In this document: piece by piece, positions 30,519 through 48,657 of the stretch
Position numbering within the stretch: position 1 is the first letter of the stretch
Layout: each line of letters begins with the position of its first letter
Assembly (NCBI RefSeq): GCF_028767185.1
Contig: NZ_JARACK010000003.1
Location: 124,001 to 188,000 of the forward strand
Direction: 5' to 3'
Length of the DNA: 64,000 bases
Source: Mangrovimonas aestuarii
GTDB lineage: Bacteria; Bacteroidota; Bacteroidia; Flavobacteriales; Flavobacteriaceae
Position numbers and translations under genes: made by a program
Notes under the pieces: model-generated
Database searches by the model: none
Seen by the model: only the letters and a program-made list of their open reading frames with translations
Told to the model about the DNA's origin: nothing

Positions 30519-33170
30519 ATGAAAGAAAAATCAACGCTCATTTTGAGTTTAGCTTTTATGTTATTCTCACTTTCAACATTAGCTCAAAATGAAATCTTCA
30601 ACAAAATTGACTCCCCAACATCTTCTTTATCTTTTCAAATCAATCAAAACAAATTAAGCGAACAGTTAGCCTCGGCGCCAATAAGGGACCTGTCTTTAAA
30701 TAGATCACTAACTATGGAATTCCCAAACTTCAATGGAATGCTTGAGAAATTCAACATTGTAGAAGCCCCAGTAATGCACCCTGATTTACAGATGCAATAT
30801 CCTGAAATTCGTTCTTATGCTGGTTACGGAATAGATGAACCTACAGCATACTTGAGATTTAGCTATTCACCATACAATGGGCTTAATGGAATTATTTTAG
30901 GAAGTGAACAAGCTACAATATTTAAATCTTCCTCAGACAACCCAAACAAAGTAATAGTCAACAAGTATTCATCAGGAAAACTACACAGAGATTTCATTTG
31001 TGAAACAATCGATGAAAACATGACCGAAATCGTTAATAGCACTGAAGCCACAGACCGTGACGCAGACGATAGCATACTTAGAAAATACCGACTGGCTATG
31101 TCTGTATCAGGAGAATATTCAGTTTATCACGGAGGAACATTAGCCTCTGTAAACGCAGCAATTAATGCTACCATAACTACTGTAAATGGCGTATTTGAAA
31201 ATGACTTTAATGTTACATTGGAATTAATCGCTACCAACGACCAAGTTGTTTATCTAAATCCGACTACTGATCCATACAGCGGATTCAGTGACAACAACTA
31301 CAACAGCGTTTTACAAAGCACTCTCAATAGCGCTATAGGCGCAGCAAATTATGATATTGGACACTTAATGGCTGGAATAGGAAACAATGGTAATGCTGGC
31401 TGTATTGGATGTGTTTGCAACGACAGCTCAAAAGGAAGCGGGTATACAACTAGCACTGTTCCTGAAGGCCCAAATTTTGACATTGATTATGTTGCCCATG
31501 AGATGGGACATCAGTTTGGCGCAAACCACACTTTTACATTTAGCCAAGAAGGAGGCATTGCACAAATGGAACCCGGAAGTGGCTCCACTATTATGGGTTA
31601 TGCAGGAATTACCGGACCAAATACAGATTTACAGCCCAATAGCGACCCATATTTTCATGCCGTTTCCATTCAACAAGTCACCAATTACATTAAGATATTT
31701 GGAACCTGCTCGGTTAACACAAATACCGGAAACGCTACACCTGTTGTAAATGCAGGAAACAACCTTACCCTCCCCATAGGAACAGCCTTTAAGCTAATAG
31801 GCACTGCCACCGATTTAGACGGAGATACACTCACCTATTGTTGGGAACAATTTGACGAAAATAATGCAGCATCAACCTACCCAAATCCTAATTCTACTGA
31901 CTCGAATTCAGTTTTGTTCCGCTCATATAATCCTAGTTTAAGTCCAGAGCGAATTTTTCCCAGAATGGAAGACTTATTGGAAAACGGAGTTAACGGTAAT
32001 ACTTGGGAAAAAGTACCAAATGTGTTAAGAACGGCCGACTTCAGATTAACAGTAAGAGACAATGTAGAAGGAGGTGCAAACAATAATCATGATGACGTGA
32101 CAATAACATTTAACCCAGTCTATGGACCACTTGAAATTACCTCACAAAACTCATCAGATATTATCTGGGCATCCAACACTTCAGAAACCATAACATGGAA
32201 TGTAAACAACACAAACACCCTTGCAGGATCGTCCAATGTAAACATCTTACTTTCTACCGATGGAGGCCTTACATTTTCAACAGCCTTAGCGACAAACACC
32301 CCTAACGATGGCTCAGAAACCATAACTGTTCCAGACACACCTGCCCCTTATTGCAGAATCTTGATTGAACCAACAAACAACCAGTTTTTTGCTGTAAACA
32401 CAACATCTTTTTCAATTGACTACACTATTGACACAACCTGTGAACAATATGCATCTGCCAGCAACTTAGATCTAGCTATACCTGACGGATTAAGCCCTAA
32501 TCAACAAGGCCCAATTTTAACTAATGTCATTAATGTCCCTACTGCTTTAAATAACTTTACAAGCTTGAAGGTAAACGTAGACATTACCCATACATGGGTA
32601 GGAGATTTAGTTATACAACTAAACCACCCCGATACCGAAACCTTCAATATCCTTTGGGGAAGAAACTGCGACAATGGCAGCAACAGTGGGTTGGATGTTA
32701 TTTTTGAAGATGGCGCCACTTCAATCGTATGCGCCAACCCGGTTTCAGGAACCTATTCTCCTGCAACTCCCTTAAGCGTATTCAACTCACTTGAAACGAT
32801 GGGAGATTGGACCATTGCGATTGCTGACTTTTGGAATGGGGATACTGGAACTCTAAATGACTGGTATATTGAGTTCTGCACAACTACAGAGACCCCTTTA
32901 GCAATAGAAGACATTGAAAACCAGACAAACCTCACCATCTACCCCAATCCAAATAATGGAGTATTTGCTATTAAACTAGACACAGCTTCTTCTGAAACTA
33001 TAGATGTGCAAGTACTTGATGTAAGAGGCCGCGTTATTTTCAAAGAGAACTACGCCAACTCTTCGAGCTTTCACCAAACCATTAACTTAAATCACATTCA
33101 ATCTGGAATGTACATTGTTAAAGTAAGCGATGGCCATAGAGATCTCACTAAACGAATTATAGTTAATTAA
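30519..33170 (+). CDS. Secreted reprolysin-like metalloprotease with P-domain and T9SS sorting domain
   Basis: 883 residues. Signal peptide (KSTLILSLAFMLFSLSTLAQ), propeptide-like region to about 180, then a zinc protease domain with HEMGHQFGANH (His327, Glu328, His331, His337) and a Met-turn (GSTIMGYAG). An Ig-like region follows, then a proprotein-convertase P-domain (about 650-790, ...WVGDLVIQL ... GDWTIAIADFWNGDTGTLNDWYIEF) and a T9SS sorting domain (IYPNPNNGVFAI to GMYIVKVSDGHR). It is an extracellular protease, followed by a terminator. Confidence 0.95.
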   Translation: MKEKSTLILSLAFMLFSLSTLAQNEIFNKIDSPTSSLSFQINQNKLSEQLASAPIRDLSLNRSLTMEFPNFNGMLEKFNIVEAPVMHPDLQMQYPEIRSYAGYGIDEPTAYLRFSYSPYNGLNGIILGSEQATIFKSSSDNPNKVIVNKYSSGKLHRDFICETIDENMTEIVNSTEATDRDADDSILRKYRLAMSVSGEYSVYHGGTLASVNAAINATITTVNGVFENDFNVTLELIATNDQVVYLNPTTDPYSGFSDNNYNSVLQSTLNSAIGAANYDIGHLMAGIGNNGNAGCIGCVCNDSSKGSGYTTSTVPEGPNFDIDYVAHEMGHQFGANHTFTFSQEGGIAQMEPGSGSTIMGYAGITGPNTDLQPNSDPYFHAVSIQQVTNYIKIFGTCSVNTNTGNATPVVNAGNNLTLPIGTAFKLIGTATDLDGDTLTYCWEQFDENNAASTYPNPNSTDSNSVLFRSYNPSLSPERIFPRMEDLLENGVNGNTWEKVPNVLRTADFRLTVRDNVEGGANNNHDDVTITFNPVYGPLEITSQNSSDIIWASNTSETITWNVNNTNTLAGSSNVNILLSTDGGLTFSTALATNTPNDGSETITVPDTPAPYCRILIEPTNNQFFAVNTTSFSIDYTIDTTCEQYASASNLDLAIPDGLSPNQQGPILTNVINVPTALNNFTSLKVNVDITHTWVGDLVIQLNHPDTETFNILWGRNCDNGSNSGLDVIFEDGATSIVCANPVSGTYSPATPLSVFNSLETMGDWTIAIADFWNGDTGTLNDWYIEFCTTTETPLAIEDIENQTNLTIYPNPNNGVFAIKLDTASSETIDVQVLDVRGRVIFKENYANSSSFHQTINLNHIQSGMYIVKVSDGHRDLTKRIIVN

Positions 33171-35699: not shown

Positions 35700-35781
35700 G
35701 CTCGAGTGGCGGAATTGGTAGACGCGCTGGATTCAAAATCCAGTTCTTTCGGGAGTGTGGGTTCGATTCCCACCTCGAGTA
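35700..35781 (+). tRNA. tRNA-Leu (anticodon CAA)
   Basis: The acceptor stem GCTCGAG pairs with CTCGAGT, with A as discriminator; CCA is not encoded. The D arm (GGCGGAATTGGTAGAC), the anticodon stem CTGGA/TCCAG with loop TTCAAAA (CAA at 35734-35736), a long class II variable arm (TTCTTTCGGGAGT) and the T arm GTGGGTTCGATTCCCAC are all present. It reads UUG codons. It is flanked by its own promoter and terminator. Confidence 0.97.
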
Positions 35782-35785
35782 CGAC

Positions 35786-36035: not shown

Positions 36036-37304
36036 CTAAAAAACAATTTGAACTAGGAACTCGGCCACAGTCTGATTAGCCCCCTGGTCTAAATCAATTG
36101 ACCCTACTGCTGCTTGCATTTTTAAATTATGACCTAAAAAATATTTGGTAAAACCAAAGGTATAACTACTAGCCTCAGGTAATAATGAAGCTTCGTTGTC
36201 TTTAAATTCTGGCTCCATGCCCTCATACCTCAAATCAAAACTAAATCCTGATTTAGTGACGTAGCCCAACTGAAAACAATAACTATCTCCCAAAACAAGA
36301 TATTCACTAATTTGCTGGGGAGCCAACAACTCTGTAGCATCAATATCTAAAAAAGGAACACCCAAGTCACTGGCACCGCTACTAGCATATTCTCCCAAAA
36401 AAGAGAATCCTTTATATTTTAGAAGTACATCTGCAAAAAATTGTGAATAATCTGGTAAAAGGTTTTGACCATTACCATCATAGAATAAAAATGCACCATG
36501 ATCCTCACCGTTTGAACCACTCGCTCCATTATTTTCACTTACTGCAGCTCCCACTAAAATTTTAAGAGACTCTTCATGAATGATATCTGCAGTATACTCA
36601 TTATTACCTTCAGAAAAATACCCTAAAGGATAAACATCCAACCGAGCACCAATTTTCAAGCCTCCCAAATCAGCATCACGAGAATCTTGCCCAAAAGAAT
36701 TTCTTCCATCACCAGAAGTAACTGCAAAGCTAGGAGCAATACCAATTTTACTACCAAACTTACCTTCCACAAACAGTCCAAATTCACGCCCTGTATTACT
36801 GTATAACCTACTGAGGTAACTTCTATCAGTAAATTGAAGTTTATCTTCTCTGTACAACATTTCTCGATTATTAAGGAATGTTTGCTTTTGCCCTCCTGTA
36901 ATGGTTAACCATTGAAAAGGGTGATACGCTATCCAGGCATCCAAAAGGGATTGGCTTAAACTAAAATCTGTTTGAATTAAAAAACTTACTTTCTCCTTAA
37001 CAGCTTTACCCCCAACAATTAAATAGGTTCGCTTTGAGTTGAATTCATATTCCGCATCCATATCCTCTATCTTTTCATAATTTACAGCTGGCTGAATGAA
37101 TCCTCCTAAATTAAACTGATAGGCCCCTTCATTAAAAGAAAAATTTAATCCTTCACCTAGTTTAAAGTTTGCTTGGTTTTTAAGGGTATACTGGACTTCT
37201 TGATATTCCTGACCTTCTTCAAGCTCTTGGGGTTCTTGAGCACTTAAAACGTTTATGCCGAATAATATGAATAGGAAAATTGATTTTTTAATAATTGATT
37301 GCAT
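36036..37304 (-). CDS. Porin (phosphate-selective porin O/P-like), last gene of the island operon
   Basis: 422 residues with a signal peptide (KSIFLFILFGINVLSAQ). The mature part has the OprO/P-like order: SFNEGAYQFNLGGFIQPAVNYEKIED, FNSKRTYLIVGGKAVKEKVSFLIQTDFS, LLDAWIAYHPFQWLTITGGQKQTFLNNRE, and a C-terminal strand ending in VQIVF with terminal Phe. It would be an outer-membrane channel. It resembles the porin at 38849 in pattern, so the two are paralogues. It begins 1 bp after the carboxypeptidase gene, so it is in the operon. Confidence 0.88.
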   Translation of the reverse strand: MQSIIKKSIFLFILFGINVLSAQEPQELEEGQEYQEVQYTLKNQANFKLGEGLNFSFNEGAYQFNLGGFIQPAVNYEKIEDMDAEYEFNSKRTYLIVGGKAVKEKVSFLIQTDFSLSQSLLDAWIAYHPFQWLTITGGQKQTFLNNREMLYREDKLQFTDRSYLSRLYSNTGREFGLFVEGKFGSKIGIAPSFAVTSGDGRNSFGQDSRDADLGGLKIGARLDVYPLGYFSEGNNEYTADIIHEESLKILVGAAVSENNGASGSNGEDHGAFLFYDGNGQNLLPDYSQFFADVLLKYKGFSFLGEYASSGASDLGVPFLDIDATELLAPQQISEYLVLGDSYCFQLGYVTKSGFSFDLRYEGMEPEFKDNEASLLPEASSYTFGFTKYFLGHNLKMQAAVGSIDLDQGANQTVAEFLVQIVF

Positions 37305-37305
37305 A

Positions 37306-38847
37306 TTAATTCTTTTTAGATAATCTGTATATAGGTAATTCTTGATTATATTTTACTTTTAAAACTCCAAAGCTTACAAAGCCGTTTAAAGCCTCTGGCT
37401 CTAATAGTTCTGTTAGTAATGGGGCATTTTTTTGATCTGTTGAAATAAAATATGTTCCTACTGGAAAAACCAATGATTTTTTAACAAGTTTAGTCTTTAC
37501 AGATTGACGAATCATTTTCTCATAAGGCTTATCTTCCTTATCAAAATCTATCACTTTATAACAATCAACATTAAACTCCGTTTCTTCACCTAACACATTA
37601 GTTTTTATCCCTAAGGTGTTTAATTTTTCAATTAGATTTTCGTACTTTTTGTCAATTATATAAGCTTGAGGCTTATCCCTAACCAATTCAGGACTAGACT
37701 CTAAAGCATTTCTTATCATCACATTCATATCAATAATCTCTTTAGTATCTAAATCTAGAACCTCTATACTACCTTCTTGAACTTTTCGTTTACTAGTTAC
37801 CGTACTTTTTATTTCGGTGGTTATTGCCTTATCTATTTCAGATTTAACTAGCGTTACATTTTCATAAGCTGACTTTAAATAAGATATTCCTACTAGATAG
37901 GTAGTCGCTATTCGGCGCTGAAATGAGGTTCTTCCTAGATTTACGCCTCTCACTTCTATTAAAGTAGAAACGGCATTTGTTAATGCATAAGAAGTCGCAC
38001 TTGATCTGGCGTTTATTGAGCCAAGGTTAAAGTGAATATCTCCATAGTAATCTGTAGTGGACATATAATCATGATACCTAAGGTTATTTTCATCAAGAAT
38101 CTCTCTTGCATTTTTCACAAACACAGACTTCGTTAAATCTTTCATGTTTTCAGGAACATTAAGGTTTCCTGAATATAAAAACATAATATCATACACTGAG
38201 GCTATACCAAAAGACCCCATCTTAGAAAAGTCACGACGAAAGGCATTATACTCATGAAAATCAACAACCACTTCTGGATTAAATGCAGAAGCAGCTTCTT
38301 TTAGAACAATAGTTTCCGGCGCCATTAGTTTAGTTTGGTCACGGTTTAAATCCAACCCATTAGCCGCATAACGACTGTGCTTGAGATAGCCATCAATATT
38401 TGCCATAGGAATCACTGCTAGCTCAATCCTATCCAACAAGTACCTACAATCGTTTTTGTTTAATAAACTGTGTAACAGATATAGCAACCCTTCTGTGCTT
38501 GCAGGTTCGTTACCGTGAAGCCCTCCCTGCATCCAAACCTTTATTTTTTCCTTGTCTGAATCTGGATTTGTGAGCTTAACTAAAGGAATTTTATACCCTT
38601 TCTGACTCTCACCAATAAAAGTCATTTCGACCTTATCTGGGTAAGTTTCTTTAAGCGAACTTATAAACTGAATTAGCTCATCATAATTGGTAAATCCTCT
38701 TTTTTTCTTTAGTGCTGGCGTTACTAGACCCAAGGTATCCGCATCCTTAAAATATCGCTCGGTAATCTTCTTAGATTGAGGATTAAGTTGTGAAACAGCA
38801 GGTATTACATATAAAAAACAGAGAAATACTAGACTAATTTTTTTCAT
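37306..38847 (-). CDS. Secreted M14 zinc carboxypeptidase
   Basis: 513 residues with a signal peptide (MKKISLVFLCFLYVIPAVSQ). M14 metallocarboxypeptidase residues are all present: zinc ligands His111 and Glu114 (GGLHGNEP), Asn168-Arg169 (LDLNRDQ), the third zinc ligand His198 (DFHEY), and the catalytic Glu298 (IEVRG). It should trim C-terminal amino acids from peptides in the periplasm. The C-terminal 130 residues are of unknown role. It sits between two porin genes with 1-bp gaps, suggesting peptide import and trimming work together. Confidence 0.93.
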   Translation of the reverse strand: MKKISLVFLCFLYVIPAVSQLNPQSKKITERYFKDADTLGLVTPALKKKRGFTNYDELIQFISSLKETYPDKVEMTFIGESQKGYKIPLVKLTNPDSDKEKIKVWMQGGLHGNEPASTEGLLYLLHSLLNKNDCRYLLDRIELAVIPMANIDGYLKHSRYAANGLDLNRDQTKLMAPETIVLKEAASAFNPEVVVDFHEYNAFRRDFSKMGSFGIASVYDIMFLYSGNLNVPENMKDLTKSVFVKNAREILDENNLRYHDYMSTTDYYGDIHFNLGSINARSSATSYALTNAVSTLIEVRGVNLGRTSFQRRIATTYLVGISYLKSAYENVTLVKSEIDKAITTEIKSTVTSKRKVQEGSIEVLDLDTKEIIDMNVMIRNALESSPELVRDKPQAYIIDKKYENLIEKLNTLGIKTNVLGEETEFNVDCYKVIDFDKEDKPYEKMIRQSVKTKLVKKSLVFPVGTYFISTDQKNAPLLTELLEPEALNGFVSFGVLKVKYNQELPIYRLSKKN

Positions 38848-38848
38848 C

Positions 38849-40150
38849 TTAAAAGGAAAAGGTTAACATTAATCGTGCAATCCACTCATTACCATCAATA
38901 GGGTTGCTATTAAAATCATTGATAGTATCCCCTTCAATGTATGTAAATGAAGTTTGTATTTTAGCACCATAGTTCCTGGCTAAGTATTTAGTTACTCCAA
39001 TGGTGTAATAATTAGGCCTACTATAGAAGGTTCCATTATTTAAAAAAGAATGTTCATCTGCCTCCAAATGGGTGAATCTTGCATCAACAGAGTATCCACT
39101 TTTAAACAAATAACCCATTTGTATATTATACCCTTCCCCAAGCATCATTCTACCTTTCACGTAGTTTTCAACATCCTGAATACCATTAACCTCAAACGTA
39201 GTGGAAACCGTCCCATCATTTCTCACACGTTGAGTAATATCTGAAGGAACAGACGCAGTTGTTTTCACAAATTCTCCTAAAGCAGAAAACCCGAGATATT
39301 TGAAAAGGAAATCAACTCCAAATTTGGTATAATCAGGCAGAGATTCCTCATCAGAATCATTAAGATAAATTATAGCGCCACTTTCCCGCCCACGCCTACT
39401 GCTCATACCATTATTAAGACTATAGTTAACCCCAACCACTAATTTAGGCGACCGCTCCCTGACAACATCTACTTGTCTAAACTGCCCGAAATTTGTAAAC
39501 AAACCAAATGGCAAAAAGTCTACCCTACCACCTACTTTTAAACCTCCATGATCTTTGCCAAACACATTTCGACCATCACCATTTGTTAACACAAAATAGG
39601 GTTTTAGAAAAGTTCCTCCCCCTGTTCTAAATCGGCCTTGCATGAATAAACCAAATTCACGAATAGATGCAAAAGCCGAAGTTACTCTGCTACGCTCAAT
39701 CAATTGTAAAGCATAAGAATTCATAAATAACTCTCTATTATCTGTATAGGTTGAGCGTTGCCCAAAAGAAACATTGATTCTATTTGTAATACTATACGAA
39801 ACATAAGCATCCATCAAGTAACTATCTGCCGCATCATCAACTTCAGAAGACCCACTTAAATCAGCTTGAAACCTGTAAGAAAACCTTTTGTTACTAGAAT
39901 TCCCCTCAATTCTCAATCGAGCTCGACGCATCCTAAACCTGTTTTGATTATCTAGCTCCTCTACATCCGTATAACTCTTGGTTTCTGCATAAGGTTGTAA
40001 ATAGCCACTAATTTTAAGTTCTTTACCATCTTCTGTACTAAACTGCAGACCTTCACCAAACGAATAGGTATTCAAGCGAATATTTTGCCCTTGTATTTGA
40101 TGAATCAAAAACAAAAAACCAATTAATGGCAATAATTTATATTGTTTCAT
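38849..40150 (-). CDS. Porin (OprO/P-like), island operon
   Basis: About 433 residues from MKQYKLLPLIGFLFLI at 40150, which starts a clean signal peptide; an ATG at 40177 would overlap iadA by 17 bp. Mature strands (KISGYLQPYAETKSYTD, FRMRRARLRIEGNSSNKRFSYRFQADLSG, INVSFGQRSTYTDNRELF) and the terminal RLMLTFSF mark an outer-membrane barrel of the phosphate-selective porin type. It lies between iadA and the carboxypeptidase gene. Confidence 0.88.
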   Translation of the reverse strand: MKQYKLLPLIGFLFLIHQIQGQNIRLNTYSFGEGLQFSTEDGKELKISGYLQPYAETKSYTDVEELDNQNRFRMRRARLRIEGNSSNKRFSYRFQADLSGSSEVDDAADSYLMDAYVSYSITNRINVSFGQRSTYTDNRELFMNSYALQLIERSRVTSAFASIREFGLFMQGRFRTGGGTFLKPYFVLTNGDGRNVFGKDHGGLKVGGRVDFLPFGLFTNFGQFRQVDVVRERSPKLVVGVNYSLNNGMSSRRGRESGAIIYLNDSDEESLPDYTKFGVDFLFKYLGFSALGEFVKTTASVPSDITQRVRNDGTVSTTFEVNGIQDVENYVKGRMMLGEGYNIQMGYLFKSGYSVDARFTHLEADEHSFLNNGTFYSRPNYYTIGVTKYLARNYGAKIQTSFTYIEGDTINDFNSNPIDGNEWIARLMLTFSF

Positions 40151-40160
40151 ATTAATGCTG

Positions 40161-41312
40161 TTATTTCTTGGTTTCAAAATTTCCTTTTACCAATATTTTG
40201 GAGTCACTCATCATTTGTTGACCTCTTGCAAAAACATCCTTTAGTTCAAACTCAGTATTAAATGCGCATAAATCAGCATCACAGCCAACAGCAATCCTAC
40301 CCTTATTTTTTAGACCTAAATTTGTTGCTGGATTAGTAGTTATTAACCTAAAAGCATCACCTATTTTTACCCCACCCAGTTTAATCAAATGTATAACCTG
40401 TTCTAAATTTTGATCAATGGGAGCCTTTTTTACACCAATCTGCCTTCCCTTATTATCAAAAACCGATAAACCAGCATGTCCATCTGAACTAAAGCTCATT
40501 TTATCAATAGACACCCCTCGCTCAAGAGCATATTGTACAGATTTATATGGATCAGTGTATTTTGAAGCACCTGTAGTTATATCAATTATTCCTCCAAGCT
40601 TGGCAAATTCAATTGCCTGATCAAAGAGTTCTTTTGTTCTCCCCACATGTGTGGGAGAAATGTGCTCAATGGGAAACTGATACGTTTCAACTAAATCAAA
40701 CAGTATATCCATTTTGGTATTTAAGTTACCCAAATGGATATGTAAGATTCCTTTTTTATTTCCTATGAATCCTCCAACCCTGACTTCCCTAAGCTTTCTC
40801 AACAACTCCCTAGAAGTAGGATACGATGAACGCACATCGCTAATTGCTATTTTGCACCCAAGAACATTGTCAACAAATATCATATCCCCTTGAATACTGT
40901 CTGTGATAGTTACTGAATCTACTCCATAATAACCACAAAACATATAGGCAGAAATCCCCTCCTGCTCTAAGGCCTTGGCTTTACTAAATAAACTTCGAAT
41001 ATTTCTAGCTGTTCCATCGGTACCCAATAAGCCTACCACTGTTGTTGTACCACATGAAATTAACTCACTTAATGTTACCTCAGGAGTCATGGATGAGAAT
41101 CCATTTTTACCTCCAGCACCTGTAATATGAATATGCTGGTCAATAAGCCCAGGAGTCACAATTTTCCCACTGAAATCCAAAACTTTAGCAAACTCTCGAC
41201 AGCCATCTAAATTATCTGAAACAGCTATTATTTTTTCACCAGATATTAAAATATCCTGATTACCCAAGGACTCAGGAGTATATAAATCTGCGTTTTTTAT
41301 TAATGTTAGCAT
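40161..41312 (-). CDS. iadA: Isoaspartyl dipeptidase (beta-aspartyl-peptidase)
   Basis: 383 residues of the amidohydrolase superfamily with no signal peptide, so cytoplasmic. Binuclear-metal residues fit IadA: His60 and His62 (DQHIHITG), the carboxylated Lys154 (LGCKIAISDVRSS), His193 (HLGN), His222 (SPTHVGRT) and Asp277 (SFSSDGHAG). The enzyme cleaves the isoaspartyl bond of beta-Asp-X dipeptides, releasing aspartate. It lies 4 bp after a DcuC-type transporter gene. This is the key to the substrate of the operon. Confidence 0.95.
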   Translation of the reverse strand: MLTLIKNADLYTPESLGNQDILISGEKIIAVSDNLDGCREFAKVLDFSGKIVTPGLIDQHIHITGAGGKNGFSSMTPEVTLSELISCGTTTVVGLLGTDGTARNIRSLFSKAKALEQEGISAYMFCGYYGVDSVTITDSIQGDMIFVDNVLGCKIAISDVRSSYPTSRELLRKLREVRVGGFIGNKKGILHIHLGNLNTKMDILFDLVETYQFPIEHISPTHVGRTKELFDQAIEFAKLGGIIDITTGASKYTDPYKSVQYALERGVSIDKMSFSSDGHAGLSVFDNKGRQIGVKKAPIDQNLEQVIHLIKLGGVKIGDAFRLITTNPATNLGLKNKGRIAVGCDADLCAFNTEFELKDVFARGQQMMSDSKILVKGNFETKK

Positions 41313-41316
41313 AGAA

Positions 41317-42684
41317 TTATAAAAAATGAAAACAAAGCATTACTATCAACGCTACTGTTAAAGGAATTAAGTTTCGTTTTACTATTGCGAGAGTTGAAAC
41401 ACCTGCAATTTCAGAAACAGCTATAATAACCCCTGCAACAGGAGAAACCGTTCTCCCCATAGAAGCCGATAATTGCATTGGTAAAATAATTGAAGTGCTT
41501 TTCACACCTAGTTTAGTTGCAATCTTTGGAACCAAAGGGCCAAAAGCAAAAAATGATGCATTACCACTCCCCATAAGCATTGAGGCTAGAAAGATCATAA
41601 CGGTCATTACAATACCTATTCCAATAGCCCCTAAGCCCATACTAGTAGAAATATTGATTAGCCCATCTATAAACCCTAGACTAATCAAACCCTTTGCAAA
41701 AATATCTGCAGCAATAATAAGAGTTACAACGGTTTTAAAAATATCTCCCATACCTCCCCAAAATATTTTGAAGGATCCCAATACCACCTTTACACTTTTT
41801 GTCCTTATAAGCTCAAAAAGCATAGCTATAAACAAACTAATAAACATGGCTGTAGTAGTATCCAGCGTTATAGGCCTAGAAAAAAAGTTAAACAACTCAG
41901 AAAATACAATGAGTAAGATTATCGGAAGTACTGGTATTACGGCATAAATAAGCGGTACAGCCAATGGCTTCTCCTCTACTTTTTTATGTACTGTATTATT
42001 TGTCTCCACATCTTTTGCGTCAAAATAACGATTGACGAAGAAATAAGTAATCATCATAGAAACACTTAAGGGTAAGACTAATAAGATCTGATGATCTAAA
42101 AAGTATGTGATAACATCTATTTTTGCAATACTAGTGGCACTGACAGTAATAGCCGATGCCGGCCCCATACCAAACGCCGTACTTGCAGTAATTACAGATA
42201 CTGCAGACAACCTACTTACTCCAATATTAATTAGTATAGGAAAAAGTGAAGCCATAAGCAACAGCCCTAAGCCGGCAGCAGAGGGTATTGCCACAAACAA
42301 AATTTGACCAATAGGAATCACCAACGATGCCGCCACGTAGGGATGAGACTTAAACCATTTCAGTGGTTTCATAGAAACATGTACAAGAGCATTAGAAGCA
42401 TCTATTTTACCAATATAAGCAACGAATCCGCCAATAGCCATAATCATAAGCCCTACTCCGGCATTGGTCTTGGAAAACGACTCCTTAATGTATCTAAACA
42501 AATCAAATATTGAAAACCCTGTAGGTTTTTGCAGTGCTGGCATTTTTTGCTCTAAAACCATAGAAACACCCAGCATTAACAAACCCGAAATAATAAGCAC
42601 AGCATGAGGGTGGTACTTTTTTAGTAGCAACCATGCAGCAGCAGCGATAAAAACTAACGATATTATTGGCCCGAATCCATCCAT
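41317..42684 (-). CDS. DcuC-type C4-dicarboxylate/aspartate transporter
   Basis: 455 residues with about twelve hydrophobic segments. The text FKSHPYVAASLVIPIGQILFVAIPSAAGLGLLLMASLFPIL and GMGPASAITVSATSIAKID are characteristic of the DcuC/YfcC-like anion transporters. Family members move C4-dicarboxylates such as fumarate, succinate and aspartate across the inner membrane. Directly before iadA and 9 bp after the LTD lipoprotein gene, it would handle the aspartate-derived product or import the dipeptide. The substrate is inference. Confidence 0.85.
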   Translation of the reverse strand: MDGFGPIISLVFIAAAAWLLLKKYHPHAVLIISGLLMLGVSMVLEQKMPALQKPTGFSIFDLFRYIKESFSKTNAGVGLMIMAIGGFVAYIGKIDASNALVHVSMKPLKWFKSHPYVAASLVIPIGQILFVAIPSAAGLGLLLMASLFPILINIGVSRLSAVSVITASTAFGMGPASAITVSATSIAKIDVITYFLDHQILLVLPLSVSMMITYFFVNRYFDAKDVETNNTVHKKVEEKPLAVPLIYAVIPVLPIILLIVFSELFNFFSRPITLDTTTAMFISLFIAMLFELIRTKSVKVVLGSFKIFWGGMGDIFKTVVTLIIAADIFAKGLISLGFIDGLINISTSMGLGAIGIGIVMTVMIFLASMLMGSGNASFFAFGPLVPKIATKLGVKSTSIILPMQLSASMGRTVSPVAGVIIAVSEIAGVSTLAIVKRNLIPLTVALIVMLCFHFL

Positions 42685-42693
42685 AATACCAAC

Positions 42694-43701
42694 TTAAAAT
42701 GAAGTACCATCTACCTTAGTTCCTGGTGAAAACAATGCTCCATTAGCCTCGTCTATCCCTGCATGTTGGACAAATTCTCCGGTAATATCTGGATTTCGCG
42801 TATAAGATTCATTCGGATTATCAGATAGAACTTCTACATCAAATGTTACAACAACATTACCATCTGCATCCTGAACGGTTACAAAATCACCTGCATTATT
42901 CATGTTCAGCAACCCCTCTGAAGCGGTTTGAACTAATGCTCCTCCAAACGTTCCTGTTGGTGTGCCTCCACCAAAAACAACAATAGCACTATTTGACGGA
43001 ACAATTGTCCCTGTAGGGAAAGTATGTCTTAAAGTCTCTGCATCTGAAATTGTATAACCACTTATATCTAAATCTGGTCCTGAATTAAAAAACTCTATAA
43101 ATTCATCTTCATTAGGTTCCCTAACACCATCACCGTTGGCATCTCCATCTAATTCTGGAGCTGGGTCATAATTTACCTCATTAATGATAAAGCCAAGAAA
43201 TGGACACCCATTATTATCTGCTGGACCAGGAGTATCCGGACATTCATCCTCTGAGTCAACAACACCATCATTATCTGAGTCAGAATCTGCATCCAAAACA
43301 TCAATATTGATTTCGAAACTTGTTAATGAAACAAAATTTTCATTCTCTCCAACTATAATTATTATGGTTTCAATTTCCTCTACCATATTATCTTGGACGC
43401 CCATTATTAGAATTTGCCCAGAACTATCACCTGAATCTATTTCGATAGAATTTGCAGATGATTCATAATCTTCATTCAATGTGGCAGACCCTTCAAAGGT
43501 TAAAGGAATGGATATATTTTTTGGAGCTGGAGCGTTTAAGGTTGCCGTTAAAATAACAACACCATCAGTTTCACTCAAACTTGTATCACTTACACCTACC
43601 TCTACAAGAGAGGGATCGACATCATCTGTTGAACATGACAAGAATACAGACAAAACAAAAAATATCGCAGGTATTTTAAACTTAAAACTGATGGTGCTCA
43701 T
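42694..43701 (-). CDS. Surface lipoprotein with Calx-beta and lamin-tail domains
   Basis: 335 residues. Lipobox FLSCS is followed by TDD, a likely surface-export signal of Bacteroidota lipoproteins. A Calx-beta-like domain (about 30-135, SLSETDGVVILTATLN) is followed by an Asp-rich thrombospondin type 3 Ca2+ repeat (DSDNDGVVDSEDECPDTPG) and a lamin-tail domain (about 168-330, IINEVNYDPAPELDGDANGDG to NPDITGEF). It is likely a calcium-dependent binding protein on the cell surface. Position in the operon suggests substrate capture. Confidence 0.85.
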   Translation of the reverse strand: MSTISFKFKIPAIFFVLSVFLSCSTDDVDPSLVEVGVSDTSLSETDGVVILTATLNAPAPKNISIPLTFEGSATLNEDYESSANSIEIDSGDSSGQILIMGVQDNMVEEIETIIIIVGENENFVSLTSFEINIDVLDADSDSDNDGVVDSEDECPDTPGPADNNGCPFLGFIINEVNYDPAPELDGDANGDGVREPNEDEFIEFFNSGPDLDISGYTISDAETLRHTFPTGTIVPSNSAIVVFGGGTPTGTFGGALVQTASEGLLNMNNAGDFVTVQDADGNVVVTFDVEVLSDNPNESYTRNPDITGEFVQHAGIDEANGALFSPGTKVDGTSF

Positions 43702-43725
43702 CTGTTAAAGGTATTTTTGGGAATA

Positions 43726-44574
43726 TTATTTAATAATTAACTTAGTTGTTTGAAATTGATTATCCACCTCAATTTTCAACAAATAAACTCCAGAATTCAA
43801 ATGACTTACATTTAACACAGAACCACCTTTAGTCTCTTCATAAACAACTCGACCATTAAGATCATAAATGACATATAGTTTTGGCCCTTGAAAAGAGGTC
43901 TCTATATTTAATTGACCATCTGTTACAGGATTTGGAAAAACAGAAAATGAAGAGTTTTTAAATTCTAGAACAGAAAGACTAGGATCCGAAAAAGGATAAG
44001 GACAAGATGATGATGCAGACGTTGTAGTGCCATCATCTGTACAAAAGGCCTCAGCAAAAACCCAGGTTGACCCATTTTTATAAGCCCAGGCATTCTCATA
44101 ATAATCAAAGTTCGGACAAGTTGTTGTCACTCCATCCTCTGACGGCTGACAGTCAACATCCCCAAATGTTTCAATTACAGCTCCGTTAAAAAACAACTCT
44201 ATCGCATCATCACCATTCTGAGTTGCTACATCGGCTTCTATAACAATATCAAACTGGTTTAAGCTTTCCATATAACTTGTCATAGCAGCAGTATCTCTAG
44301 GCAATAAAATATGGTCACCTGCATTTGCAGCCATCACGGGAAAGGTGTATTCCTCTCCATCTGTTCCTCCTCCATTATTTGCAACCCCTATTCCATACAG
44401 ACTTAAATCAGTAATATTGTTTATCACATATAGATGTATAGCTTTTCCTGAGCTTCCTCCTTCAGGAACTGTAAAATCTATAACACCCTTAAGCTCAAGG
44501 TCCTGCCCAAACAAGTTAGCAGAAACAAAGGTCATCGCACTCAATAATAAGAGTAAAAAGTAGTTTTTTTTCAT
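43726..44574 (-). CDS. Secreted protein with lamin-tail-like domain and T9SS sorting domain
   Basis: 282 residues: signal peptide (NYFLLLLLSAMTFVSANLFGQ), a beta-rich domain at about 28-200 that resembles lamin-tail domains (GDDAIELFFNGAVIETFGDVD, ENAWAYKNGSTW), and a C-terminal T9SS sorting domain (FSVFPNPVTDGQLNIETSF to LLKIEVDNQF). It is probably secreted or surface-bound. It is the first gene of the operon, with the paired ATACCAA repeats at 44641-44671 just upstream. Confidence 0.82.
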   Translation of the reverse strand: MKKNYFLLLLLSAMTFVSANLFGQDLELKGVIDFTVPEGGSSGKAIHLYVINNITDLSLYGIGVANNGGGTDGEEYTFPVMAANAGDHILLPRDTAAMTSYMESLNQFDIVIEADVATQNGDDAIELFFNGAVIETFGDVDCQPSEDGVTTTCPNFDYYENAWAYKNGSTWVFAEAFCTDDGTTTSASSSCPYPFSDPSLSVLEFKNSSFSVFPNPVTDGQLNIETSFQGPKLYVIYDLNGRVVYEETKGGSVLNVSHLNSGVYLLKIEVDNQFQTTKLIIK

Positions 44575-44640
44575 AATTAGTGGTTTTAGAAGTAATAATT
44601 AATCAAACTACAATTTAACGAGAAGCTCAGACTACAAAAG

Positions 44641-44671
44641 ATACCAATTGACAAAAAAAAATAATACCAAT
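44641..44671 (-). promoter_or_regulatory. Candidate MocR operator A: direct repeats ATACCAAT
   Basis: ATACCAAT at 44641-44648 and again at 44664-44671, 23 bp from start to start. It lies 66-97 bp upstream of the first ATG of the island operon. The half-site contains ATACCA, the direct repeat bound by the MocR-family regulator GabR. It has the same sequence and register as the pair at 46183-46213. Confidence 0.6.
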
Positions 44672-44675
44672 AAAA

Positions 44676-46193
44676 TCAACCTAACAACTCACAATCAACT
44701 AATTCAGTCATTTTTTTTATTTTTCGTTTCATAATAGATGATCGAACTGAGGAATAACCAATAATTAATCCAAACTTTTCAGGAATACCGATATAACATT
44801 TACTCAATGAAAAAGCCGTTATCTTGTTTTGATTAAGTTTGACAATTATTTTTGATTCCTGACCAGGTGTAATCTCTTTCTTAAAATAGGCAACTAGATG
44901 AAAACTTGAAAATGGCAGTTTTTCCACATACATGGTTTTGCAACAGGCGTTAAACTCTAAACAAAATAACTCGTATCTCTCTTTCGCAACTTGAACACTA
45001 CTTTTAATGTGTTGGAACAAGTAATTCTTTTCAATAAACTGGTTCATAACCACCTGGATGGAAGGGGAAACAAAACGATGAGAGTGCTCCTGAAGCGCCT
45101 GAACCGTCTCGACTAAATAGGAAGGAACAACCATATAAGCTAAACGAATAGAAGGATGCAATAAACGATTGAAAGTACCCATATAAATAGTTCTATCCTC
45201 AGTATCTATGCTATATATAGAAGGAGTTTGATCAGTTGTGTTTGCAATTTCATTTTCGTAATCATTTTCAATTATTAAAGCTTTATGTTTCGATGCCCAA
45301 CTTAAAATTTCCTTACGTCTTTCTAGACTCATTTTTATCCCTAAAGGATAATGGTTAGAAGGTGTCACATGAATTAACTTAGGTTTCTTATTATTGATAC
45401 TCTTTAAGGAACGCAACGAAACTCCCTCTCGATCAACACCTACAGGTACAATATCTGCTCCAATACTTTTAAAGACCGAATGAACATTTGGGAAAACGGG
45501 ATTTTCTAAGACAACACAATCTCCTTCATCTATTAGGGTATTAGATATTAGATATAAGGATTGTAAAGATCCAGAAACAATTATAATCTGATCTGGACTG
45601 CATTTTATTTTTCTACTGATGTTCAAATAATTGCAAACACTATTTTTTAGTTCATTTAGACCAGTAGTCTGTGAATAAGAAAGTGAAGAAGACTTTACAT
45701 GTCTCCAATAAGTGTTTAGAAGATTTTTCCATTTATTCACGGGAAAAACGTCTAGTGGAGGCAAACCTGGTCTAAATGCGATATTTTCATTTGGCAATCT
45801 ATTTATTAACGAGATATTATTAAGATAGGATAACCCTTTTCTCGATATTTTAGGATAATCATTACAGTTTATTTTTGAAGCAATATTTTTTTTGCCATTT
45901 TTTCTTACCCAAGATTCACTTGATATTCTATTTCCAGAACCAACTTTTGAGACGATTAACTTCTCCAAGCTAAGCAATTCATAAGCTTTTATTATTGTAG
46001 TCCTTGACAAATCAAGCTCTTCGGAAAGAATTCTAGTAGAAGGCAAAACCCAGTCATTGGGCAGCTCTGTGTTTAGGATACATTGTTTTATAGACCTATA
46101 CAACATAACATATTTGTTATTTGGATATTGCTTAACTTGGTATAAGTATTCATTTTGTATCCGTTCGACAGCAAACTTATTTTTGGTATTCAT
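44676..46193 (-). CDS. MocR-family regulator with degenerate PLP site
   Basis: 505 residues: an N-terminal GntR-type winged helix (about 25-90, PSTRILSEELDLSRTTIIKAYELL) joined to a fold-type-I aminotransferase-like domain (about 130-490). Known MocR proteins such as GabR hold PLP through a Lys in GTFSK and an Asp in EDDY. Here these read GTFNR (Arg343) and ENDY (Asn310), so covalent PLP binding looks lost. It probably regulates the divergent hydrolase/transporter genes and the leftward operon through the ATACCAA repeats. The first repeat copy lies in its own first codons. AT-rich compared with neighbours. Confidence 0.9.
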   Translation of the reverse strand: MNTKNKFAVERIQNEYLYQVKQYPNNKYVMLYRSIKQCILNTELPNDWVLPSTRILSEELDLSRTTIIKAYELLSLEKLIVSKVGSGNRISSESWVRKNGKKNIASKINCNDYPKISRKGLSYLNNISLINRLPNENIAFRPGLPPLDVFPVNKWKNLLNTYWRHVKSSSLSYSQTTGLNELKNSVCNYLNISRKIKCSPDQIIIVSGSLQSLYLISNTLIDEGDCVVLENPVFPNVHSVFKSIGADIVPVGVDREGVSLRSLKSINNKKPKLIHVTPSNHYPLGIKMSLERRKEILSWASKHKALIIENDYENEIANTTDQTPSIYSIDTEDRTIYMGTFNRLLHPSIRLAYMVVPSYLVETVQALQEHSHRFVSPSIQVVMNQFIEKNYLFQHIKSSVQVAKERYELFCLEFNACCKTMYVEKLPFSSFHLVAYFKKEITPGQESKIIVKLNQNKITAFSLSKCYIGIPEKFGLIIGYSSVRSSIMKRKIKKMTELVDCELLG

Positions 46194-46213
46194 TATTTTA
46201 GATGATTGGTATT
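46183..46213 (+). promoter_or_regulatory. Candidate MocR operator B: direct repeats TTGGTATT
   Basis: TTGGTATT at 46183-46190 and 46206-46213, 23 bp start to start, the same register as operator A on the other strand. It spans the start codon of the regulator and lies upstream of the hydrolase gene at 46275. A third TTGGTAT at 46137 lies 46 bp (two registers) before the first, inside the regulator coding sequence. Confidence 0.55.
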
Positions 46214-46274
46214 TTAAAAATAATTCTTTTTAAGATTATTTTATTTTTTTAAACGAAAACTTACAGATTAGTAA

Positions 46275-47207
46275 ATGAAATCAATAAAAAACAATAATAT
46301 TCTCTTGTTTGTCCTTTTGACAATTCTCTTCATTTCATGCAATAGTGATGATGACTCAAATGACTCTAACTCAAACCCCACGGAAAATATCAATGTAGGG
46401 CCTGGCACAACTTCTTTTAACTATTCTACCTCTAATGGAAGCAAATCTTTGAATGTATTTTATTACGTTCCAGAAAACACAACGCAAACAGCCCCTCTAG
46501 TTTTTGTACTTCATGGAGCGGGGCGAAATGCAGAAGATTATAGAAATAGTATGATTACTAAAGCTAACGAATACGGCTTTATAGCAATTGCTCCAGAATT
46601 TTCACAAACAAACTACCCTGGAGGTGACGGATATAATTTAGGAAATGTTTTCGAAGACGGCGATAACCCCTCCCCAGACACCCTAAACCAGGAAATGGAC
46701 TGGGCGTTTTCAATTATTGAACCTTTGTTTGATTATATGAAAAATGAAATTAACAACACCAATAACTCATATTATATGTATGGCCATTCTGCAGGAGGGC
46801 AATTCGTCCATAGATTTCTTATGTTCAAGCCTAACGCCAGAGTCTATAGGGCCGTAGCATCAGCCTCTGGTTGGTACACCTTTCCAGATTCAAGCATTAC
46901 TTTTCCCTATGGATTCAATGAAAGCCTTCTACAATCATCCTCCCTCGATAACCTTTTCTCAAAAAACCTAATAATTCAAGTAGGAGAAAACGACAACGAT
47001 CCAAACTCACCTGGTTTAAGACACAATCAATTTGCAGATGCACAGGGACTAAACCGACTTGAAAGGGCTGTGAATTTTTTTGAATTCAGTCAAAACTTAG
47101 CCCAAGAGCAAACAATTTCATTTAATTGGGAACTTTACATTAACAATGATGCGGATCATAATTACATAACTGCATCACAAAGCGCCGCAGATTTATTATT
47201 CAACTAA
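46275..47207 (+). CDS. PHB-depolymerase-like hydrolase, surface lipoprotein
   Basis: 310 residues. The lipoprotein signal ends FISC (Cys22), then NSDDDSND, an acidic surface-export signal. The alpha/beta hydrolase has oxyanion HGAG (80-83), nucleophile Ser172 in GHSAGG, an Asp at about 240-242 and His295 (DADHNY). It resembles the extracellular PHB depolymerase/esterase LpqC family. It is not near polyhydroxybutyrate genes but near isoaspartyl dipeptidase; a PHB-depolymerase-like enzyme from Sphingomonas (PahZ1) cuts poly-aspartate, so an amidase or depolymerase role is my inference. Confidence 0.85.
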   Translation: MKSIKNNNILLFVLLTILFISCNSDDDSNDSNSNPTENINVGPGTTSFNYSTSNGSKSLNVFYYVPENTTQTAPLVFVLHGAGRNAEDYRNSMITKANEYGFIAIAPEFSQTNYPGGDGYNLGNVFEDGDNPSPDTLNQEMDWAFSIIEPLFDYMKNEINNTNNSYYMYGHSAGGQFVHRFLMFKPNARVYRAVASASGWYTFPDSSITFPYGFNESLLQSSSLDNLFSKNLIIQVGENDNDPNSPGLRHNQFADAQGLNRLERAVNFFEFSQNLAQEQTISFNWELYINNDADHNYITASQSAADLLFN

Positions 47208-47214
47208 CTTTAAA

Positions 47215-48657
47215 ATGAATTTCACAAAAAAACGGCTTGGCCTAATTTTAGGCCCGATACTATTTATTTTAATTAAATTATGGATTCATCCGGAGGGCTT
47301 AAGCCCTCAAGGCAATGCTGTTTTGGCTTCTACAGCTTGGATTGCTGTTTGGTGGATTACCGAAGCAGTAGCTATCCCCGTAACCGCCTTACTGCCTATT
47401 GTTTTATTCCCCTTGTCTGGAGGGCTTTCCCTAGGGGACACCACAGCATCCTATGGCCATAAATATATTTTTCTTTTTCTAGGTGGCTTTATTTTAGCAA
47501 TTACAATTGAAAAGTGGAACTTACATAAACGTATCGCCTTAAACATTATTAGAATTGTAGGCACCAATGTAAATAAGATCATTCTGGGTTTTATGGTTGC
47601 CACTGCCCTATTATCCATGTGGATCTCTAACACTGCAACAGCAGTCATGATTCTTCCAGTAGGTATAGCAATAGTTCTCCAATTGGAGGACAACCCCAAC
47701 ACTATACAAAATGAAAATCTAATTTTTGGAAAGGCACTCATGCTTGCCATTGCTTATAGCGCCTCAATAGGTGGAATTGCGACTCTTATAGGCACTCCAC
47801 CAAATTTAGTCTTGGCAGGGGTGATTGAAAGAACTTATAATAGTGAAATTACTTTTGCCCAGTGGTTTTTGTTTGGCTTCCCAATAAGCGTAATCCTGCT
47901 TATAGGATGCTGGATCTACCTTACTAAAATTGCTTTTAAGTTTAAACAAAAAGAATTTCCAGGAGGCAAGTTAGAAATTCAAAGACAGTTATTAAGTTTA
48001 GGTAAGATATCCTATGAAGAAAAAGCCGTTTTACTAATATTTTCACTCACTGCAGCATCTTGGATTTGTAGATCATTTTTACTTTCAAAGTGGCTTCCTC
48101 AAATTGACGATACTATTATAGCTATTCTAGCCTCAATAATTTTATTTTTAGTACCAAGGAAAAATGGAGAAGAAGCATTAATATCCTGGGAAGATGCAAC
48201 TAAGTTACCCTGGGGGATATTAATTCTTTTTGGCGGAGGAATGGCATTAGCTCTAGGCTTTGAGTCAAGTGGACTAGCCACTTGGATTGGGGAACAGTTA
48301 ACATCATTTACTGGATTTTCAGTTTTTATTTTAATTTTAATTATAATTACTGCCGTTAATTTCCTAACCGAAATAACCTCAAACATGGCTACTACAGCTA
48401 TGTTATTACCTGTTCTAGTTCCTTTGGCCAAAATTGTAAACATTCATCCCTATTTACTTTTGGTAAGCGCAACTCTAGCCGCTTCTTGTGCATTTATGCT
48501 CCCTGTTGCTACACCTCCAAATGCAGTGGTTTTTGGTTCTGGGTATCTAAAAATTGAGGATATGGTAAAAAAGGGGATTTGGATGAACATTATTTCCATT
48601 ATCCTTATGACCTTTACTGTTTATTATATTCTACCGTTAATATGGGGTTTAATCTAA
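47215..48657 (+). CDS. SLC13 (DASS) family dicarboxylate transporter
   Basis: 480 residues with about eleven hydrophobic segments. The family signature is clear: WWITEAVAIPVTALLPIVLFPLSG near the N-terminus, MWISNTATAVMILPVG (SNT motif 1), GTPPNLVLAGV, TEITSNMATTAMLLPVLVPLA (SNT motif 2) and MLPVATPPNAVVFGSG. Members co-transport Na+ with succinate, malate, citrate or aspartate-type anions. It follows the hydrolase by 7 bp, so the two form one unit. With the DcuC-type protein, it is the second dicarboxylate carrier of the island. Confidence 0.93.
   Translation: MNFTKKRLGLILGPILFILIKLWIHPEGLSPQGNAVLASTAWIAVWWITEAVAIPVTALLPIVLFPLSGGLSLGDTTASYGHKYIFLFLGGFILAITIEKWNLHKRIALNIIRIVGTNVNKIILGFMVATALLSMWISNTATAVMILPVGIAIVLQLEDNPNTIQNENLIFGKALMLAIAYSASIGGIATLIGTPPNLVLAGVIERTYNSEITFAQWFLFGFPISVILLIGCWIYLTKIAFKFKQKEFPGGKLEIQRQLLSLGKISYEEKAVLLIFSLTAASWICRSFLLSKWLPQIDDTIIAILASIILFLVPRKNGEEALISWEDATKLPWGILILFGGGMALALGFESSGLATWIGEQLTSFTGFSVFILILIIITAVNFLTEITSNMATTAMLLPVLVPLAKIVNIHPYLLLVSATLAASCAFMLPVATPPNAVVFGSGYLKIEDMVKKGIWMNIISIILMTFTVYYILPLIWGLI

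Follow-up and report, generated by a model that had tools for sequence, protein, structure and literature searches.

The ten-gene locus at positions 36036 to 48657 of a 64,000-nucleotide stretch of Mangrovimonas aestuarii DNA (contig NZ_JARACK010000003.1, positions 124,001 to 188,000; hereafter the window) very probably serves the use of a C4-dicarboxylate polymer or oligomer of some kind. Our favoured reading, held at a confidence just below an even chance, is that this island takes up and digests an extracellular polymer of beta-linked C4 dicarboxylic acid that has no free amine, with poly(beta-L-malate) as the likeliest candidate. Polymalate was preferred to an aspartate polymer because the amino-recognising parts of the locus have lost that ability. 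The first-pass annotation of the window had proposed a beta-aspartyl peptide or polymer as the substrate, which was not supported by the residues of the isoaspartyl dipeptidase (IadA) homolog, the MocR-type regulator and the DctA carriers described below, while its proposal of a dedicated island was borne out by a conserved gene set with a single predicted regulator.

Results

Amine-recognition sites of IadA, MocR and DctA

Relatives of the island were collected by a named-genome scan with an IadA alignment, which gave 133 relatives; the best 80 loci were used and 53 relatives lay outside this sample. Since IadA was the scan query, it is present in every locus by construction. The open reading frames (ORFs) of the loci did not come from a gene finder, and BLAST thresholds were used to cluster them. 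Loci are numbered with L and genomes with G.

The IadA homolog of the window (40161..41312, minus strand), a member of the amidohydrolases and predicted to be a C4-diacid dimer hydrolase, passed the isoaspartyl dipeptidase model TIGR01975 (398.1 bits, cut-off 331.25). The Bacteroidota IadA sequences read fell into two types, a Lys-type which was 57-78% identical to the window's protein, and a Glu-type with five members at 35-37% identity and one partial sequence at 44%. The Lys-type formed a single clade of 81 (the 80 loci and the window) with a support of 99 in a quick tree. Lys69 occupied the position of E. coli Glu77 in 80 of these 81, the sole other residue being the Thr of L134, and the Glu that binds the alpha-amine of the substrate was found in none of the island enzymes; it was kept in 6/6 Glu-type Bacteroidota sequences and in the single Photobacterium sequence read. 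The position of E. coli Ser289, the head-group Ser/Cys, was Gly in 81/81, and the catalytic Tyr was kept in 55 and replaced by Phe in 26. The E. coli (1onw) and Colwellia (5xgw) enzymes share with the island enzyme the sequence family, the binuclear zinc ligands (invariant, 81/81), the lysine at the E. coli K162 position, and the Thr and two Arg (Thr98, Arg161 and Arg225, invariant in the 81 aligned), whereas the Glu to Lys and Ser/Cys to Gly replacements, the Tyr to Phe replacement in 26/81 and a clade of its own set the island enzyme apart. The invariance of K154, H222 and R225 was partly imposed, because these residues lie in the scan patterns; Lys69 lies outside them.

In Colwellia IadA, Glu80 and Thr109 contact N11 of beta-Asp-Lys, an atom that we took for the free amine, and Cys297 contacts another ligand atom; the E80Q variant was inactive on beta-Asp-Leu, and less than 10% of the activity was retained by Y140F (PMC5517026). 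The two Arg that bind the carboxylate of the leaving group were retained in the island enzymes. Together with the Glu to Lys and Ser/Cys to Gly changes, this indicated that the isoaspartyl head-group site was remade and the other end of the site was kept. Among the canonical IadA-DcuC pairs read, the one nearest to the window's was found in Photobacterium (L113, 9950-12612, pDA100), whose Glu-type IadA and DcuC shared 48% and 38% identity with their counterparts in the window.

The MocR/GabR-type regulator (44676..46193, minus strand; family scan and alignment) shares with GabR (4n0b) the GntR and aminotransferase folds and the direct-repeat sites adjoining the gene, and differs from it in Arg343, which aligns with GabR K312, the residue that forms the aldimine with pyridoxal 5'-phosphate (PLP). 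This position was read in 50 copies from 49 loci (of the 51 with a MocR, those below about 380 aa being excluded) and in the window's copy. It was Arg, and not the PLP lysine, in 50 of the 51, the exception being a second copy in L145, which comes from a neighbouring locus. Four MocR paralogs outside the islands held Lys in three cases and Gln in one. Two Lys-keeping sisters, in two cases only, adjoined amino-acid-type genes. In Polaribacter porphyrae, a second locus lay directly beside the island (L205, 3031-19154), with a MocR that has the PLP lysine, an M14 gene, two lamin-tail-like proteins and SusC/SusD-like genes (by eye), and also 2,4-diaminopentanoate-dehydrogenase-like, amidohydrolase and glutamate-racemase-like genes; the Lys-keeping MocR of L204 was flanked by genes for an M20 peptidase and for an amidohydrolase. 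The NCBIfam matches of these neighbours were below the model cut-offs, and by its genes the second locus of L205 looks like an amine-substrate sister system.

The first-pass annotation had assigned both carriers of the island to dicarboxylate families, and both scored above the model cut-offs. The DcuC-family inner-membrane carrier (41317..42684, minus strand; NF037994, 381 bits, cut-off 100) is a predicted importer of dimers or monomers, and the sodium-coupled anion carrier of the SLC13/DASS family (47215..48657, plus strand; TIGR00785, 322 bits, cut-off 198.6) is a predicted monomer importer. In some relatives a DctA stands where SLC13 would be, and the two co-occurred in 0/46 of the long-flank loci (at least 5.5 kb on each side; 46 of the 80). 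The L184 protein, the only DctA covered by the NCBIfam scan, reached 655 bits for the C4-dicarboxylate carrier DctA (cut-off 513) and 340 bits for the Glu/Asp carrier GltP, which is below the cut-off of 638. The motif G[VI]D[KR]FMSE[AG]RAITN of transmembrane helix 8 was present in 11/11 readable members (13 in total, two being cut by contig ends), with Ser and Ala at the amine-reading pair. An Asp/Thr pair selects amino acids over dicarboxylates at these positions (PMC3737229), and Asp394 of GltPh coordinates the substrate amine (PMC12668577). Judged by its motif, the carrier is a true DctA; the Ser/Ala pair does not show that a change occurred in the island.

Conservation of the gene set

That the ten genes form one real, conserved utilisation locus, widespread in aquatic Bacteroidota, was well supported. 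In the 46 long-flank loci, DcuC, M14 and the query IadA were each present in 46, porB and porA in 44 each, MocR in 39, PahZ in 36, SLC13 in 28, DctA in 7, DUF4886 in 4 and SusC in 2. When all 80 loci were counted, including those on cut contigs, for which short flanks make the gene-presence counts lower bounds, DcuC was found in 79, M14 in 76, porB in 75, porA in 67, MocR in 51, PahZ in 49, SLC13 in 34, DctA in 13, DUF4886 in 9 and SusC in 4. Nearly all 80 were labelled as Bacteroidota (Flavobacteriales, Cytophagaceae, Sphingobacteriaceae, Chitinophaga and Bacteroidales), and one came from a metagenome-assembled genome (MAG) labelled Algicola, a name placed in Pseudomonadota. The record titles of the locus-bearing genomes pointed to sea and fresh water. 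Among the carriers of the locus were the cultured strains Flaviramulus basaltis DSM 18180 (L114), Polaribacter porphyrae NBRC 108759 (L145) and Winogradskyella aurantia WNB302 (L130). The gene order recurred across many genera, in an arrangement far from chance, and the set was kept together in other Bacteroidota, in keeping with the first-pass annotation.

Among 299 genomes of the family, PahZ homologs (E up to 1e-15) were found in 37 and IadA above the cut-off in 11. PahZ was present in 10/11 of the IadA genomes versus 27/288 of the others (Fisher p 2.6e-9); in one of the ten (G142) it lay elsewhere in the genome, away from the island. All 12 loci with a PahZ of at least 45% identity (L039-L050, 11 genomes) had at least one further island gene adjoining it, and none of the 25 loci with a weaker PahZ (L051-L075) had any. 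The island of G150 (L046, L111) was without DcuC, IadA and MocR, and kept SLC13, PahZ, a lamin-tail protein, both porins and M14. As the outer genes and SLC13 are kept there without DcuC-IadA, this suggests that the outer steps are able to reach an SLC13 substrate, and that the DcuC-IadA module serves something larger. In one locus, that of Sinomicrobium, a phosphoenolpyruvate carboxykinase gene follows SLC13, which is compatible with malate and aspartate alike.

Surface hydrolase, carboxypeptidase and porins

The alpha/beta-hydrolase lipoprotein of the PahZ1 family (46275..47207, plus strand), a predicted surface depolymerase, matched no Pfam family, and two NCBIfam polyhydroxybutyrate-depolymerase models matched it below their cut-offs. 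Its best PDB relatives were the poly(aspartic acid) hydrolase-1 entries 6ve6 (E 9.5e-58) and 9o7u (5.1e-51), followed by LpqC 3d0k, and a 23-sequence profile (22 of 51 locus copies and the window's) recovered only these three at E up to 1e-5. Because two poly(aspartic acid) hydrolase-1 chains were the top matches, the kinship with PahZ1 proposed in the first-pass annotation was right. Ser172 (GHSAG), Asp240 and His295, a triad assigned by motif and shared with PahZ1 and LpqC along with the sequence homology, and five Arg were invariant in 23/23. In contrast to the PahZ1 of 6ve6 and 9o7u, the island protein is a predicted lipoprotein and belongs to a separate clade: in a quick tree the island PahZ grouped with three non-island members in a single clade, from which the two PDB entries were excluded (97*). 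PahZ1 of Pedobacter KP-2 needs a trimer and leaves dimers uncut (PMC4456602).

DUF4886 has an SGNH hydrolase (esterase) fold; of the four long-flank loci that carry it, two also have PahZ and two do not. A DUF4886-type hydrolase also adjoined PahZ outside the main island in L047 (13452-14210, Pfam) and in L053 (1660-2412, DUF4886-like by eye). In many Flavobacteriaceae (L119, L120, L122, L130, L132, L145 and others) a second PahZ copy followed porA, and these copies belonged to a different clade from the first ones. The neighbours of non-island PahZ (L051-L075) were considered as a clue to the substrate, and neither the recurrent neighbours nor the four loci read gave a clear one. PahZ in viral contigs was confirmed in no case.

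The exported zinc carboxypeptidase of family M14 (37306..38847, minus strand), which bears an additional domain at its C terminus, was recognised by family scan, alignment and structure model (predicted local distance difference test score, pLDDT, 90.7), and its best structural matches were carboxypeptidases. In 31/31 aligned sequences (30 of 73 locus copies and the window's), the zinc ligands, Arg159, Asn168 and Arg169 (carboxylate binding) and Glu298 (catalytic) were invariant, these roles being our assignment by motif. Invariant Arg281 lies two places from the presumed ungapped equivalent of carboxypeptidase A residue 255, and from this position an acidic pocket is possible. Carboxypeptidase A splits esters too. 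With the Arg pair of IadA and the Arg/Asn/Arg of M14 invariant, both enzymes keep the residues for an alpha-carboxylate leaving group.

Neither Pfam nor NCBIfam gave a hit for the predicted outer-membrane porin porA (36036..37304, minus strand) or for porB (38849..40147, minus strand). An AlphaFold model of porB, built with 29 sequences (28 of 72 locus copies and the window's; pLDDT 83), best matched the phosphate porin OprP (PDB 2o4v, E 3.3e-22) and OprO, which supported the porin assignment of the first-pass annotation, porB being a predicted OprP-like anion porin. By family scans, a SusC/SusD pair was absent among the ten genes of the window, and SusC/SusD without porins was found in 4/80 loci (L179, L180, L181 and L184, Bacteroidales-type); the description of the locus as SusC/D-free thus held for the window and failed for these four relatives. 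The locus shares with polysaccharide utilisation loci a surface lipoprotein, outer-membrane uptake and a periplasmic enzyme, and the SusC/SusD of the four relatives, but the window has porins and, by family scans, no sugar-active enzyme among its ten genes.

Arrangement of the window and TTGGTAT repeats

The ten genes and the tight seven-gene operon annotated in the first pass were verified in the ORF list of the window. The leftward operon had intergenic gaps of 1-24 bp, provided that porB starts at the ATG 40147; the TTG start 40177 of the ORF tool would overlap iadA. The mocR gene lies upstream of this operon on the same strand, and the pahZ-SLC13 pair runs rightward. Family scans (Pfam and NCBIfam) backed DcuC, IadA, M14, lamin-tail/Calx-beta, the type IX secretion system (T9SS) tail, MocR and SLC13/DASS. 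The Calx-beta/lamin-tail lipoprotein (42694..43701, minus strand; family scan, lipobox by eye) is a predicted surface binding protein. The first gene of the leftward operon (43726..44574, minus strand) had been called a T9SS-secreted lamin-tail-like protein: its T9SS tail was confirmed (TIGR04183, PF18962), and a lamin-tail domain was not detected by Pfam, while in several relatives the protein at this position best matched the window's lamin-tail lipoprotein.

Beside MocR, TGGTAT/ATACCA was observed 93 times versus 5.6 expected in Markov-shuffled DNA, in 65/88 regions. Same-strand [TC]TGGTAT pairs were exactly 23 bp apart in 38/38 cases (91 regions) and were located in 30/50 loci. The window held two exact TTGGTAT-N16-TTGGTAT repeats with zero expected, the only exact copies in its 2.95-Mb genome; when one mismatch was permitted, nine sites were obtained there, versus two for a reversed control pattern. 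The predicted operator O1 (44641..44670, minus strand) lies ahead of the leftward operon, and the predicted operator O2 (46183..46212, plus strand) lies ahead of pahZ-SLC13 and overlaps the start of mocR. Since an exact repeat stands before each of the two operons, a single MocR probably controls both via the direct repeats, to which it is predicted to bind. Across 15 genomes, 11 exact repeat sites were found; nine of them, in six genomes, adjoined an island MocR, the other two belonged to G150, and eight genomes had none. The two sites of G150 lay elsewhere in a genome whose island is without MocR.

Outside the island, a tRNA-Leu (CAA) was found at 35700-35782 on the plus strand, just past the 3' end of the leftward operon, with hairpin-like repeats near it (by eye). 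An 883-aa protein (30519-33170) sits left of the island, with three housekeeping-type genes between; by eye, it carries the metalloprotease-like motif HEMGHQFGANH and ends in a T9SS-like tail.

Discussion

Polymalate is described in PMC9210645 as the only natural water-soluble polyester and as a carbon source for some bacteria. An amine-free C4 acyl part, a beta linkage and an alpha-carboxylate leaving group would make beta-polymalate the simplest substrate of the island; its chain has O in place of the NH of beta-polyaspartate. The following scheme is a prediction in its substrates, localisations, transport direction, each catalytic step and MocR binding. The PahZ1-family surface lipoprotein would cut the polymer to oligomers, which lamin-tail proteins would hold, and a DUF4886 hydrolase would join or replace PahZ in some relatives. 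The anionic oligomers would enter through the OprP-like porins, and periplasmic M14, starting at the free-carboxylate end, would shorten them to monomers and dimers. Monomers would be imported by SLC13 (or DctA) and dimers by DcuC, then the cytoplasmic Lys-type IadA would split the dimers and the C4 acid would pass to the tricarboxylic acid cycle. MocR without its PLP lysine would govern both operons via the TTGGTAT direct repeats. As the characterised PahZ1 leaves dimers, a dimer importer and a dimer hydrolase make sense.

Several observations weigh against polymalate. An asparaginase-II gene lay 31-53 bp after dctA in 3/80 loci (L139, L142 and L148, from related MAGs; PF06089, 345 bits, assigned for L148), which points to aspartate. 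The two PahZ1 entries of the PDB bear the name poly(aspartic acid) hydrolase, and polyaspartate is what the known PahZ1 enzymes cut. The M14 enzyme belongs to a family of peptidases, and one of the four MocR paralogs outside the islands lacks the Lys as well. Among the long-flank loci, 8/46 had neither PahZ nor DUF4886 and 11/46 had neither SLC13 nor DctA. The Lys of IadA could serve another amine-free acyl group (succinyl or tricarboxylate), or, with a longer beta-aspartyl chain as the ligand, could bind one of its neighbouring carboxylates. The polymalate hydrolase of Comamonas acidovorans is described in PMC9210645 as a 43-kDa outer-membrane protein without serine- or metallo-esterase activity, and is therefore probably not a PahZ.

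Among the rival explanations, some other amine-free C4 acyl substrate, such as amino acids conjugated to succinyl or malyl groups or an oligomer with mixed ester and amide bonds, with no malate homopolymer, is an unlikely candidate: the residue pattern needs only an amine-free diacid acyl part and an alpha-carboxylate leaving group, and amides are the main substrates of the M14 and amidohydrolase families, but the surface depolymerase-like lipoprotein, the two porins and the SusC/SusD of 4/80 loci suggest a polymer or a large oligomer. A beta-aspartyl peptide or polyaspartate locus, in which PahZ would cut a beta-Asp polymer and IadA would split beta-Asp dipeptides, is unlikely. The names of the nearest PDB entries, the TIGR01975 score, the Glu-type IadA adjoining DcuC in Photobacterium and the asparaginase beside dctA all speak for it, yet they stand against the Lys of IadA at a position where E80Q abolishes the Colwellia activity, the missing PLP lysine of MocR, carriers from C4-dicarboxylate families with Ser/Ala in DctA, and the place of the PDB PahZ1 outside the island clade.

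Two further explanations are very improbable. In the scavenging of cyanophycin, beta-Asp-Arg dipeptides released by cyanophycinase would be imported and split; in known cyanophycin utilisation loci, a cyanophycinase and an IadA are encoded together with a transporter (Ben Hania et al., cited in PMC10206079). The island shares with these loci an IadA-family enzyme, a transporter and a polymer hydrolase, but is without cyanophycinase and has a Lys-type IadA, porins and PahZ. Five of 14 island genomes did have a cyanophycinase above the cut-off, elsewhere in the genome and in no case on the island contig, while nine, the window's included, had none above it (some of these genomes being incomplete); the best match in the window's own genome was partial, with 30 bits against a cut-off of 126.6. 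The Lys change of IadA applies here as well. A generic scavenging of aged, isoaspartyl-rich protein without any dedicated polymer would account for an IadA-family enzyme together with a carboxypeptidase, but the strict 23-bp repeat, the tight co-inheritance and the polymer-type hydrolase argue for a dedicated substrate, and the head-group site of IadA is changed.

Returning to polymalate, it may be, at a confidence somewhat under even, that many sea and lake Bacteroidota carry a dedicated polymalate-eating system, with a dimalate hydrolase derived from IadA by charge reversal at the amine site and a MocR without PLP chemistry. Among the best-ranked matches in open-licence PMC articles, no description of a bacterial polymalate utilisation locus was found; those on polymalate degradation were reviews, articles on production and unrelated work. 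If the reading is right, genes would be assigned to bacterial polymalate breakdown, many Bacteroidota proteins that pass the beta-aspartyl-peptidase model are probably misnamed, and the locus would pair two losses of amine recognition, one by charge reversal in an enzyme and the other through the missing PLP lysine of a MocR. Even with a different substrate, the locus is widespread and unexplained; if the substrate is polymalate, this polymer would be a far commoner aquatic carbon source than is known.

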